Shown piece by piece: positions 11,125 to 23,323 of a stretch of 64,000 bases of DNA. The translations under genes were made by a program, and so were the position numbers. The stretch comes from Lachnospiraceae bacterium (GTDB lineage: Bacteria > Bacillota > Clostridia > Lachnospirales > Lachnospiraceae): contig JAILBX010000165.1 in the NCBI GenBank assembly GCA_024680675.1, forward strand, positions 1 through 64,000, given 5' to 3'. Each line of letters starts with the position of its first letter. The stretch's first letter is position 1. Below the pieces are notes generated by a model. The model did no database searches. It was not told the DNA's origin and was given only the letters and a program-made list of their open reading frames with translations.

Positions 11125-11652
11125 TCAAAATCTGTTCTGAAGTGCGGCTGCAGTAGGTGCATCAAAAGCCCCCGAAAGCAGTTCCTGAAAATCTCCGGAT
11201 ATATCAACACTCTTAGGTGTTATTATAAAGATATGATTGGAAATCTTTTGAAGATTGCCTCCGATAGCATAGGTGGAGCCTGAAGCAAAATCAATTATCC
11301 TCTGTGCAACATCCATATCCAGACCTTCCATATTAAGCACTACCGTACAATTATCCAAAAGCGTATCCGTAATCTCTCTTGACTCATCAACGCTGGAAGG
11401 CTTAACCACAACAACAGAATTTCCGCTGGATGTGGTACGGGAGTTTCTTCTCCCTCCGGTTATCTTGGTAATCTTTCGAGATACTTTATTTTCCGGCTCA
11501 AGGTCATCATCTATCGTAGCCGAACGAATGGATCTTTTGTTACTTTTTCTTGAATGAACGTCAAGATCATCCTCTTCATCAAAGTACTCATCATCATCAA
11601 AATCATCATCATTGACTCTGATAGAGTCCAATAACTTATCAAAAATTGCCAT
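11125..11652 (-). CDS. sepF: Cell division protein SepF
   Basis: Binds FtsZ and the membrane and helps form the septal ring in Gram-positives. 175 residues: a short N-terminal membrane-targeting helix (MAIFDKLLDSI), an acidic and basic low-complexity linker (about 15-80), then the SepF domain (about 85-165) with VVLNMEGLDMDVAQRIIDFASG and the IIFITPKSV-type end. It follows yggS (20 bp gap) as in Bacillus, where these genes sit in the division cluster. Confidence 0.94.
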   Translation of the reverse strand: MAIFDKLLDSIRVNDDDFDDDEYFDEEDDLDVHSRKSNKRSIRSATIDDDLEPENKVSRKITKITGGRRNSRTTSSGNSVVVVKPSSVDESREITDTLLDNCTVVLNMEGLDMDVAQRIIDFASGSTYAIGGNLQKISNHIFIITPKSVDISGDFQELLSGAFDAPTAAALQNRF

Positions 11653-16168: not shown

Positions 16169-17275
16169 TTAAAAATCCAGGCTTTGAAGCTTCACGTTTA
16201 ACACTACCCCCATACCTATGAGCAGACTTATAAGCGAGGTCTGTCCATAACTGAAAAACGGAAGCGGAAGTCCTGTATCCGGAAGTATCATGGTTGTAAC
16301 ACCGATATTAATAAAGGTTTGAAAGCCTACCAGACCTGCCATGCCCCCTGCGATGATCATGCCGGCAGTATCCTTTGCGGTCCAGGCGATTATAATGCAT
16401 TGAAGCACAATTATAAACAACAGGATAATTATACCACAACAGCCCACAAAACCCAATTCTTCCCCTGCTATGGAAAAAATAAAATCCGTCTGAGCCTCCG
16501 ATATAAAGTTACCGTTCTTTACAGAACTGATAACGTTATTGTTAAGCCCCTTTCCCGTAAGCTGTCCCGAACCTATGGCAGTGATCGAATTAAGCTGCTG
16601 GTATGCTTCCGTTGAGGCATATTGTTCTGGCTGCAGCCAGGCAAGTATCCTCTTTTGCTGATAATCATTAAGGATAGACTGATCGGGCTGCATTACAAAG
16701 TTCAGAAAGATGATGACAGATGGTACTATCACTACTATTACAGGTATTATAACCTTAAAGCTTAAGCCCCCTATCAGCATTACGGTAGCAAATATAGCCA
16801 GGATCATAATTGACGTAGAAAGATCCGGCTGATCAAATATAAGATAAAAGGGCGGCAGGATAAGAAGCACGCTCAACAAAAGAAAGCGCAGGGTATTGAT
16901 GTTATCTTTATGCTTCATGATAAACTGTGCATAAAATAAAATCAATAAAATTTTAACCAACTCAGAGGGCTGAAATCTAAGTCCCATAAAGACAAACCAC
17001 CTTGAAGCTCCACCTCCTGAGGCTCCATAAAGCTTTACAGCGATCAAAAGAGCAATGGCAATGCCATAGATGGCTATGTAAAACTTCAATATGATATGGT
17101 AATCAATAAAGGACAAAATCATCATGACGATCACGCCTATGACAAGACCCTGCACCTGATTTACCTGCAATTCCTCCTTGGCGCTTCCTATGAGTAAAAC
17201 ACCCAGTATGGATGCCATTATGCAGCTTAAAACAAGAAAAAAACCATATTTTCCAAAATCGTAATTTTCAAACAT
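16169..17275 (-). CDS. rodA: RodA/FtsW-type SEDS peptidoglycan glycosyltransferase
   Basis: Polymerises lipid II during elongation together with the class B PBP encoded nearby. 368 residues with about ten membrane helices. SEDS signatures are visible: RWFVFMGLRFQPSELVK, the long extracellular loop with QPEQ and NSITAIGSGQLTGKGL, and the C-terminal LPLPFFSYGQTS. The neighbourhood of mreBCD and PBP2 favours RodA over FtsW. It follows minC after a 10 bp gap; minD and minE, which might be expected between them, are not there. Confidence 0.93.
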   Translation of the reverse strand: MFENYDFGKYGFFLVLSCIMASILGVLLIGSAKEELQVNQVQGLVIGVIVMMILSFIDYHIILKFYIAIYGIAIALLIAVKLYGASGGGASRWFVFMGLRFQPSELVKILLILFYAQFIMKHKDNINTLRFLLLSVLLILPPFYLIFDQPDLSTSIMILAIFATVMLIGGLSFKVIIPVIVVIVPSVIIFLNFVMQPDQSILNDYQQKRILAWLQPEQYASTEAYQQLNSITAIGSGQLTGKGLNNNVISSVKNGNFISEAQTDFIFSIAGEELGFVGCCGIIILLFIIVLQCIIIAWTAKDTAGMIIAGGMAGLVGFQTFINIGVTTMILPDTGLPLPFFSYGQTSLISLLIGMGVVLNVKLQSLDF

Positions 17276-17285
17276 TTTTTTTCCT

Positions 17286-17957
17286 TTATATCTGAAGCTT
17301 GTCTATTGTTTCAGACGTGATCTCCTCTACCAGAAGCTCTTCATCCTTTACAAAAACTATCTTGGGATTGGCCTTTGATTTAAAAAGTCCTCTTTTAGCA
17401 AAAATATTCATGGATTTTTCCCCAATGCATATCTTTACGGGCCTTAGGTCAAGAGCCACAACAAAGCTGGATTCATTTCCCTTTACTCCGGCTCTTGCTG
17501 TCCCATAAAGAGTACCAAGTATTATTATGTTGCCCTCAGAGATCACCTCTGCTCCCGGATTAACATCCCCTAGAATGATAAGATCCGTATCTGCCTCCAC
17601 TACCTCAGAAGCCCTTATGGGACCCTTATAAAACTTTGAAAGCATCTTATCCTGATCTCCTATAAATCTTGTTCCGGCTTTTATATACTGCTGGCTTTTT
17701 TCGCTTTCTCCCTTTCCTACTGTACAAAGAACAGTCAGCTCGGAATTATCGGCTATGGCATCCACCAGAAGCCTTTCCTCTTCCTCCATAAGCTCCCTTC
17801 CTTCAAAGGAGATCACAAGCTTTGTTTTACCGAAAAATTTTGATGACTCTCTGAACTTTTTCCCCAATGCCAGATAAAGCTCATCAAAGGGTATATCCGG
17901 ATCCAATATAACAGACAGACCCTTTGGATAATTTTTTATTACTACAGGATTTTTCAT
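17286..17957 (-). CDS. minC: Septum-site determining protein MinC, without minD/minE
   Basis: FtsZ antagonist. 223 residues from the ATG at 17957, which follows GAGGAG; the track start at 17975 contains that ribosome site. The N-terminal domain (1-95) precedes a beta-helical C domain (about 105-195) with DTDLIILGDVNPGAEVISEG and GNIIILGTLYGTARAG. The motif that contacts MinD, RSGQ in E. coli and B. subtilis, reads RASE at 115-118. No minD or minE follows; rodA comes next. The sequence beyond residue 195 is a longer tail than usual. Confidence 0.92.
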   Translation of the reverse strand: MKNPVVIKNYPKGLSVILDPDIPFDELYLALGKKFRESSKFFGKTKLVISFEGRELMEEEERLLVDAIADNSELTVLCTVGKGESEKSQQYIKAGTRFIGDQDKMLSKFYKGPIRASEVVEADTDLIILGDVNPGAEVISEGNIIILGTLYGTARAGVKGNESSFVVALDLRPVKICIGEKSMNIFAKRGLFKSKANPKIVFVKDEELLVEEITSETIDKLQI

Positions 17958-20860: not shown

Positions 20861-21364
20861 TCAGCTCCTTTTTTCAAAGCTTTCAAGCCACTCATTGATC
20901 AAAAGAATACCCCTGTATATGATTATGGTTATAACCACCGTATATACGATCTCAGGTAATATAACATAGAGCAGATAATGTAAAAAATTGAGTCTTCCTC
21001 TTAATAAAAAAAGGAAAATATAGCATAAAAGACAATAAATGATCTCACTTGTAGAGATAAGTATCATGGGCAGCTTAATATCCTCGGGATAAAAGATAGC
21101 TCTGAAGATACCGTTTATATAGCCGATAAAAAGATAGATCAGAGCATAAAAGCCTATAATATCTCCAAAAAAAATATCCACCAGGAGACCACAGACAAAG
21201 CCTATTACCATCCCTTCCTTTCTTCCTCTCATAAAGCCAAAGGAGGAAGTTATTATTATAAGGATATTGGGTACGATCCCGGCTATTGCGAGCCATCTGA
21301 AAACTGTGCTCTGCAACAAAAATGCAACGATTATTAAAACTCCAACTATAGCAACTCTGCGCAT
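20861..21364 (-). CDS. mreD: Rod shape-determining protein MreD
   Basis: Integral membrane component of the elongasome. 167 residues, about five helices, with the conserved FGFMRGRKEGMVIGFVCGLLVDIF segment. It sits 1 bp after mreC and 8 bp before PBP2, so these three are translationally linked. Confidence 0.9.
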   Translation of the reverse strand: MRRVAIVGVLIIVAFLLQSTVFRWLAIAGIVPNILIIITSSFGFMRGRKEGMVIGFVCGLLVDIFFGDIIGFYALIYLFIGYINGIFRAIFYPEDIKLPMILISTSEIIYCLLCYIFLFLLRGRLNFLHYLLYVILPEIVYTVVITIIIYRGILLINEWLESFEKRS

Positions 21365-21365
21365 A

Positions 21366-22220
21366 CTATTTTCCCTGTTTCAAATCTGTTATTACCAAAA
21401 CTGTATTTAAATGCTTAAAATCAACAACCGGAGTCAGGTAACCGGATTTTGTCAGATTATTGGAATCCTCCTTTATTTCGGTTATATATCCCACTGTTAT
21501 ATTTGGAAGGTACTTATCGGATATAGTTGAGGTTACTATCTGGTCTCCTGTCACAACCTTATTTTCCGAGTCTATGAGCTGGCTGAACCTTATATTTCCG
21601 TCATTCATAAGATTAAGGTCACCTGACACGATAAGATTATCAGAGGTAGACATGACCATACCCGATAAGTTGGTCTCATCATCTATTATGGACTTAACAC
21701 TGGCCCAGTTAGGTCCCACCTCCGTGACTATCCCCACCAGTCCCGAACCGGCCATAACATTCATATCCACACTTATGCCGTCATTGGCTCCCTTGTCAAT
21801 AATGAAATTTGAAAACCAGTTTCCCGTATCCTTACCGATTACCCTTGCTCCTACCTTCTTATAATCCGAATATCTTTCATCCAACGCAAACAACTCCCTA
21901 AGCTCAGACAGCTCATATCTGTCAGCCTGGAGATCGTTCATTCCGATAGAAAGCTCATCAACCTTTGCTTTCAGTTCACTGTTTTCTTTTTGCAGATCCT
22001 TTATGGTATTAAGACTGTCGGTTCTGTCATTCAGCCATTCTCCTGCCTTGCTGATCCCTTTTTGAAAGGGAACTATAACATAACCCACAACAGAATTTAA
22101 AGGCACCGACATTACATCCGTGGCAAATGAGATCACCATCATAACTACACAGAGCATGCTTAATGCCAGTAAAACGTACCTGCTTGGTATTGAAAATTTA
22201 TGCCTATGGTTTTTTGCCAT
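21366..22220 (-). CDS. mreC: Rod shape-determining protein MreC
   Basis: Membrane-anchored scaffold that activates PBP2/RodA. 284 residues: an N-terminal membrane helix (about 14-36), a coiled coil (about 70-105, LQKENSELKAKVDEL) and the beta-barrel domain with KVGARVIGKDTGNWFSNFIIDKGANDGI. Conserved GLVGIV is present. First gene of the mreCD-PBP2-minC-rodA series. A terminator-like hairpin separates it from mreB upstream. Confidence 0.95.
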   Translation of the reverse strand: MAKNHRHKFSIPSRYVLLALSMLCVVMMVISFATDVMSVPLNSVVGYVIVPFQKGISKAGEWLNDRTDSLNTIKDLQKENSELKAKVDELSIGMNDLQADRYELSELRELFALDERYSDYKKVGARVIGKDTGNWFSNFIIDKGANDGISVDMNVMAGSGLVGIVTEVGPNWASVKSIIDDETNLSGMVMSTSDNLIVSGDLNLMNDGNIRFSQLIDSENKVVTGDQIVTSTISDKYLPNITVGYITEIKEDSNNLTKSGYLTPVVDFKHLNTVLVITDLKQGK

Positions 22221-22318: not shown

Positions 22319-23323
22319 TTACATTTCATACATTGAATAAGCTACCTTCTTAAAATTATCATTGTTAATGATATGTGAAATGCCGTAGGCAACAGAGCCC
22401 TCTCCGTTAGATGAAAAATTGACCCTGAGTCCCGTGCTTCTGGCTATCAATTCATGAAGATTTCCTATGGATGCCGAACCTCCCGTCAGAAAGATACCCT
22501 TTTTATATATATCTGCGGCAAGCTCGGGAGGGGTTCTTTCCAGTATTACCTTAACGTTGTCAATTATATTTTCAAAATGCTCCGACATACATTTTTCAAC
22601 CAGATCCGTAGGTATATTTCTTTCCACAGGCAGACCTGTCACGATATCTCTTCCATATACCACCGCATCTGAGTTTGTAGCCTTTAACTCAGGAAGAGCT
22701 ATCTTTACCCTCTCTGCGGTTTTCATTCCGATAAGCAGGTTATATTCCTTTCGGATCACATTCTTTATAGAGTCATCAAACTTCTTCCCGCCTATTTTTA
22801 TAAGCTTACTTAAAACGATGCCTCCAAGGGATATTATGGATATCTCTGTGGTCTCATAGCCTATATTGACCACCAGCACGCCTGACAGATTCATTACATC
22901 CACATCCAGTCCTATGGCATCGGCAATGGCTTTTTCAACCACATATATCCTTTTTGCCTTGACATTACTTTCCTTTACAAGGTCATAAAAGGCTCTTCTT
23001 TCAACATCAGTGATATCCGTAGGAACAGAAATATAGTAATCGGCGTTTCTTAGATTTCCATCCATTTCATCCAATATAAAATTCTTAAGGAGAACCTGCA
23101 TGTTGTGAATATCTGCAATAACACCGTTTATTAAGGGATATGAGACCACGATGTTGGAAGGTGCCTTTTCATACATGGTAAAGGCATCGTCACCGTATGC
23201 AAAAATATTGTGTCTGTTTTGAATAGCGATTATGTTCTTATGTGATGATATGGTTTCTTTAAAACCATTGTATATCTTTATATTATATGTACCTAAATCG
23301 ATACCAAATGCATTTATGGACAA
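22319..23323 (-). CDS. mreB: Actin-like rod shape protein MreB
   Basis: Bacterial actin that guides the elongasome under the membrane. 334 residues. The start is TTG at 23323: GGAG lies 7 bp before it. Actin-fold motifs are seen: phosphate 1 FGIDLGTYNIKIY, connect/phosphate 2 VLVVNIGYETTEISI and adenosine motif FLTGGSASIGNL. It is more divergent than typical MreB (DLGTYN instead of DLGTANT), so it may be an MreB/Mbl paralogue. It lies between radC and mreC, the classic order. Confidence 0.88.
   Translation of the reverse strand: MSINAFGIDLGTYNIKIYNGFKETISSHKNIIAIQNRHNIFAYGDDAFTMYEKAPSNIVVSYPLINGVIADIHNMQVLLKNFILDEMDGNLRNADYYISVPTDITDVERRAFYDLVKESNVKAKRIYVVEKAIADAIGLDVDVMNLSGVLVVNIGYETTEISIISLGGIVLSKLIKIGGKKFDDSIKNVIRKEYNLLIGMKTAERVKIALPELKATNSDAVVYGRDIVTGLPVERNIPTDLVEKCMSEHFENIIDNVKVILERTPPELAADIYKKGIFLTGGSASIGNLHELIARSTGLRVNFSSNGEGSVAYGISHIINNDNFKKVAYSMYEM

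Follow-up and report, generated by a model that had tools for sequence, protein, structure and literature searches.

The window analysed here (a stretch of 64,000 nucleotides, positions 1 to 64,000 of contig JAILBX010000165.1 of a Lachnospiraceae genome, GCA_024680675.1) contains a minC gene within an inherited elongasome operon, with mreB, mreC, mreD and pbp2 upstream and rodA, mgsA and dacA downstream, all of them co-directional (Table 1). The gene is complete and lies on the minus strand, which the first-pass annotation had left unstated, and its start codon at position 17957 is preceded by an AGGAG Shine-Dalgarno sequence. Two claims of that annotation hold: minD and minE are missing between minC and rodA, the stop codon of minC lying 10 nt before rodA, and the MinD-contact motif RSGQ is replaced by RASE. 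In Pfam searches the C-terminal domain of the encoded protein scores far above the cut-off (PF03775, 90.5 bits versus 33.2), and the N-terminal domain exceeds the cut-offs of two profiles (PF05209, 37.8 bits; PF22642, 40.3 bits); the NCBIfam equivalog model TIGR01222 yields 90 bits, just short of its cut-off of 95.25. The predicted structure aligns in Foldseek with full-length Thermotoga maritima MinC (1hf2) across both domains, its C-terminal beta-helix reaches target-normalised TM scores of 0.78-0.84 against chains of 4v02, 6riq and 5xdm, and it resembles the MinC C-domains of Aquifex aeolicus, Pseudomonas aeruginosa and Escherichia coli. By family the protein is MinC; the system around it is not MinCDE, because two defining parts of that system, MinD and MinE, were searched for and are absent. 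The PBP2 encoded upstream is long, with approximately 280 residues separating the dimerisation domain from the transpeptidase domain, and a long PBP2 is also found at the corresponding loci of the genus and its sisters.

Table 1. Features of the minC locus and related genes in the window
Feature	Position	Strand	Remark
sepF	11125..11652	minus	anchors FtsZ to the membrane; found at another place in the window
rodA	16169..17275	minus	FtsW/RodA/SpoVE family; directly downstream of minC
minC-rodA junction, 10 nt	17276..17285	minus	site of minD and minE in relatives; no gene in it here
minC, 223 aa	17286..17957	minus	start codon ATG at 17957, stop codon at 17286; carries both domains of MinC
MinC C-terminal loop, residues 181-199 (KSMNIFAKRGLFKSKANPK)	17361..17417	minus	hydrophobic-basic finger replacing the 'IARSPD' block
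Tyr151 of MinC	17505..17507	minus	invariant in 32/32 genus sequences
RASE, residues 115-118	17604..17615	minus	replaces the MinD-contact motif RSGQ
MinC N-terminal domain, residues 5-78	17724..17945	minus	Pfam profile match
pbp2/mrdA, 958 aa	17976..20852	minus	directly upstream of minC
mreD	20861-21364	minus	inherited elongasome operon holding minC
mreC	21366-22220	minus	inherited elongasome operon holding minC
mreB	22319-23323	minus	inherited elongasome operon holding minC

A search of the whole genome for minD and minE had been set beforehand as a possible refutation of an orphan MinC, and neither gene was found in the window genome. This genome (G000) is a MAG that is 85% complete and consists of 288 contigs, and the absence of the partners from it alone is therefore weak evidence. 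MinE has no match in it, and the best match to the MinD model is FlhG (105 bits versus a cut-off of 212.9), whose gene lies directly 3' of flhF, the only other match being a weak stretch of Ffh. The DivIVA profile PF05103 has no match in the window genome either; only weak partial coiled-coil matches were obtained in the genus, and DivIVA is also absent from the near relatives G039 and G042-G044.

The genus of the window genome (labelled g1) was surveyed in 37 species genomes, most of them MAGs; public records list it as uncultured Lachnospiraceae, mostly from the rumen (e.g. JAIKZD010000138, JAFSXN010000148, DGUG01000122). MinC is above the cut-off in 34 of these genomes, and the three without a clear minC are 59-85% complete. 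MinE was found in none of the 37, several of which are 97-99% complete, and a true MinD in a single one (G002). Here, a 5.9-kb contig (G002:C68, locus L051) of a MAG with 6% contamination carries a foreign-type minC-minD after a gene for an 837-aa protein, while the normal orphan minC of the same genome resides on another contig; this MinD is probably a contaminant, or else belongs to a recently acquired second min operon. The order pbp2-minC-rodA is present at every readable g1 locus. The gap between minC and rodA has a median of 9 nt in 31 g1 loci, compared with 1053-1508 nt in 63 MinDE-bearing Lachnospiraceae loci, and the operon order minC-minD-minE-rodA is found in more than 60 relatives. 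In a tree of MreC, MreD, PBP2, RodA and MgsA, g1 forms a single clade (support 100) whose neighbours all keep minCDE. As reconstructed from gene order and this tree, minD and minE were cleanly deleted once, at the base of the genus, from an mreBCD-pbp2-minCDE-rodA operon. Two FlhG genes of the genus (G010:C42:8640-9509 and G028:C159:9571-10332) contain one in-frame stop codon each, which may reflect a sequencing error or a broken gene.

Retention of MinC after loss of MinDE is rare, but it happened at least two times and probably three. Among 399 genomes of the phylum, MinC is above the cut-off in 331 and MinD in 340, and a comparison of both lists by hand left only the window genome and G149, a member of another class, with MinC above the cut-off and no MinD. 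G149 is a single case, in which minC again lies between pbp2 and rodA and VPGK takes the place of RSGQ. An orphan minC is also encoded by G070, which belongs to another genus (g35) of the family of the window genome; the order pbp2-minC-rodA is present and RSGQ is destroyed in 8/8 g35 genomes, with the search for MinD and MinE covering the whole of G070 and the other seven genomes being judged by the closed junction. A single loss shared by g1 and g35 is rejected, since constraining g1 and G070 to one clade lowers the log-likelihood by 142 (AU test, p=1.0e-4); on this phylogenetic evidence, the loss of MinDE in at least one other genus (g35) was a second, independent one. The survey also revealed about 12 phylum genomes with a match to the MinD model and no MinC, although some of these matches might represent other MinD-family ATPases. 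In G038 (L044), minD-minE lies between pbp2 and rodA without minC, and G039 harbours two complete min operons (L083, L084): the one at the ancestral site within the mre operon has a degenerate motif, RDNQ, and the other, located elsewhere, has RSGQ.

RSGQ of MinC and Asp154 of MinD are contact residues of the two proteins (PMC5548801). The RSGQ motif prevails in MinD-bearing relatives (78 of about 100); in its exact form it occurs in 0/32 sequences of genus g1 versus 73/90 of the other MinD-bearing relatives, and the site reads HAGQ, KAGE, RAGQ, RASE, RAGE, RAAE, RAGD, RAHE, RSHE or KSGE in g1 and is unrecognisable in g35. Taken by itself, this change does not demonstrate that MinD binding was lost, which qualifies the reasoning of the first-pass annotation, because A. 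aeolicus MinC, which was crystallised with MinD, has RAGQ and some MinD-bearing relatives show RDNQ, TNGQ or SNGE; RASE alone was consequently rejected as proof. The changes extend well beyond the motif. An 'IGDxIARSPD' block just C-terminal to the beta-helix, which is conserved in MinD-bearing relatives, is gone in both g1 and g35; R184 is retained in only 2/32 g1 and 0/8 g35 sequences versus 81/90 relatives, and most g1 sequences have lost Q175 and M171. At the same time, residue 151 has changed from Lys or Arg to Tyr in 32/32 g1 sequences, and it is Tyr or Phe in 5/8 sequences of g35 versus 0/5 of its sisters and 3/90 other MinD-bearing relatives. A finger in which Lys or Arg comes after two hydrophobic residues is present in 32/32 g1 (e.g. 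GLFKSK, GIFLRNK, AGFLRK, TIWKNK) and 8/8 g35 sequences (GFFKKK, GLFKKK) versus 0/5 g35 sisters and 3/90 other MinD-bearing relatives, the rarity elsewhere being descriptive because the pattern was defined after viewing the sequences. As the sequences of one genus share their history, 32/32 counts as one event, and the weight of the convergence is carried by the agreement of two independent lineages. On this basis, the aligned sequences argue firmly that the C-domain was changed convergently in g1 and g35; the MinC of G149 has no such finger.

Part of these changes is already present in the MinDE-bearing sisters of g1, where exact RSGQ is absent in 4/4, the finger present in 2/4 and Tyr151 present in 2/4. 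The finger and Tyr151 are therefore not simply caused by the loss of MinDE, and since these sisters already show part of the changes, the alignment suggests that the dependence of MinC on MinD had been weakened before minDE was deleted. By the strand pattern of the structural model, residues 115-118, 133-136, 151-152 and 172-173 form successive inter-strand turns of the beta-helix and may stack at one corner. There is a superficial similarity between the finger and the beginning of the tail that targets MinD to the membrane in these bacteria (GFFAKLAGLFKK). A classical amphipathic, MinD-like membrane helix is not supported, however, because a HeliQuest-type score of the loop does not separate the groups (mean 1.35 in g1 versus 1.32 in other relatives) and the loop is predicted to be disordered in both structure models (pLDDT below 50 at residues 189-194).

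Orphan MinC is under purifying selection, judging from substitution rates: between close g1 species the dN/dS of minC is 0.014-0.18, which is within the range seen for rodA from these genomes and for minC between MinD-bearing pairs. The C-domain beta-helix is kept in the orphans, as are the N-domain positions that are near-invariant in MinD-bearing relatives (K8, G13, F24, K34, F41, G53, R54, L56, C78), which constitute a family signature and bear on FtsZ binding indirectly. K8 presumably corresponds to Lys9 of E. coli MinC, beside Gly10; mutations of Gly10 abolish FtsZ inhibition.

We consider it most plausible, with a probability of about 0.68, that this MinC still functions as an antagonist of FtsZ, needs neither MinD nor MinE for it, and is placed via a rebuilt surface of its C-domain. 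That MinC works without MinD had already been proposed in the first-pass annotation, and the proposal is well supported by the genome- and genus-wide absence of MinD and MinE, by purifying selection and by loss of the motif in two further, independent orphan lineages. Sequence comparison shows that the features associated with MinD contact (RSGQ, the 'IARSPD' block, Q175) were released from constraint and that Tyr151 and the hydrophobic-basic finger were fixed as new features of the C-domain. According to the proposal, the N-domain would still bind FtsZ, and the C-domain dimer might be placed by its rebuilt surface either through direct contact with the membrane or through a new partner, but not via MinD. 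With MinDE and DivIVA missing, neither Min oscillation nor a DivIVA-anchored gradient would be expected, and MinC might restrain stray Z-ring assembly either all over the membrane or where a partner guides it. A more far-reaching and less probable version holds that MinC became self-sufficient twice independently, with the finger (GLFKSK, GFFKKK) and the aromatic residue 151 forming a new membrane docking site, which would provide MinC with a tether of its own and make MinDE dispensable.

Recruitment of MinC by a neighbouring elongasome protein (RodA, PBP2, MreC, MreD or MreB) or by SepF, which would couple elongation to division, was also suggested in the earlier annotation. In each of the three orphan lineages, minC runs in the same direction as pbp2 and rodA and lies close against them, which probably entails shared dosage and timing. 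However, more than 60 relatives that carry MinDE have minC at the identical place between these two genes, and this neighbourhood was thus inherited rather than acquired. Although orphan minC stayed there in three lineages, an ancestral gene order lends no specific support to recruitment by the elongasome, which we regard as rather unlikely. It is less likely still that FlhG, a MinD-like flagellar ATPase, replaces MinD as the membrane partner of MinC. FlhG is encoded in the window genome, in nearly all g1 genomes and in G070, and a contribution of FlhG to symmetrical division has been reported for Campylobacter jejuni, which lacks MinD (PMC12826062). Yet these FlhG proteins have Tyr at the residue aligned to Asp154 of MinD, a position reported to be critical for the binding of MinC (PMC5548801), and G149 keeps its orphan MinC with no FlhG match at all, both of which weaken FlhG as a general stand-in; moreover, the MinD-contact motif of MinC is lost, although its preservation might be expected if the partner were MinD-like.

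It is highly improbable that MinC is a functionless relic on its way to loss. A few genomes of the family lack any Min genes, and the three incomplete g1 genomes without a clear minC could be seen in the same light, but minC has stayed intact in 34 species since one ancient loss of MinDE, its low dN/dS rejects the relic explanation, and newly invariant residues such as Tyr151 require selection. Finally, the fragmentation of the window genome and the predominance of MAGs notwithstanding, we can hardly conceive that MinD and MinE are present and merely missing from the assemblies, a possibility rejected by the closed minDE slot at every readable g1 locus and by the lack of MinE in all 37 genomes, including the nearly complete ones.

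In the textbook view MinC is a passenger of MinD. Lineages that keep MinC without MinDE represent natural experiments on MinC alone and bear on the question whether MinD-mediated membrane recruitment is essential to the inhibitor, and the convergent changes point to residues 115-118, 151 and 184-195 as candidates for MinD-free recruitment. We found no description of lineages with MinC and without MinD in the open-licence papers searched, where DicB and FlhG were the only precedents found. Compared with the MinCDE system of E. coli and most Lachnospirales, the orphan MinC shares both domains, the fold and the N-domain signature, and its place in the operon is that seen in MinDE-bearing Lachnospiraceae; it differs in that the genome encodes neither MinD nor MinE, RSGQ and the 'IARSPD' block are lost, and Tyr151 and the finger are fixed. 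Like the MinCDJ-DivIVA system of Bacillus subtilis, it uses MinC without MinE, but in B. subtilis MinD is needed and is placed by MinJ and DivIVA, whereas the genome studied here lacks MinD, and neither it nor the genus yielded DivIVA. C. jejuni is not known to use MinC. It has in common with the present case that FlhG is present and division is controlled without MinD (PMC12826062); the difference is that MinC is kept here and that FlhG is missing from G149, one of the orphan cases. A precedent for recruitment of MinC independently of MinD is provided by the E. coli prophage protein DicB, which acts together with ZipA (PMC4967827); in that case an ordinary MinC is commandeered by a phage protein, whereas in the lineages described here no counterpart of DicB or ZipA was identified, MinD is absent and MinC itself has been altered.
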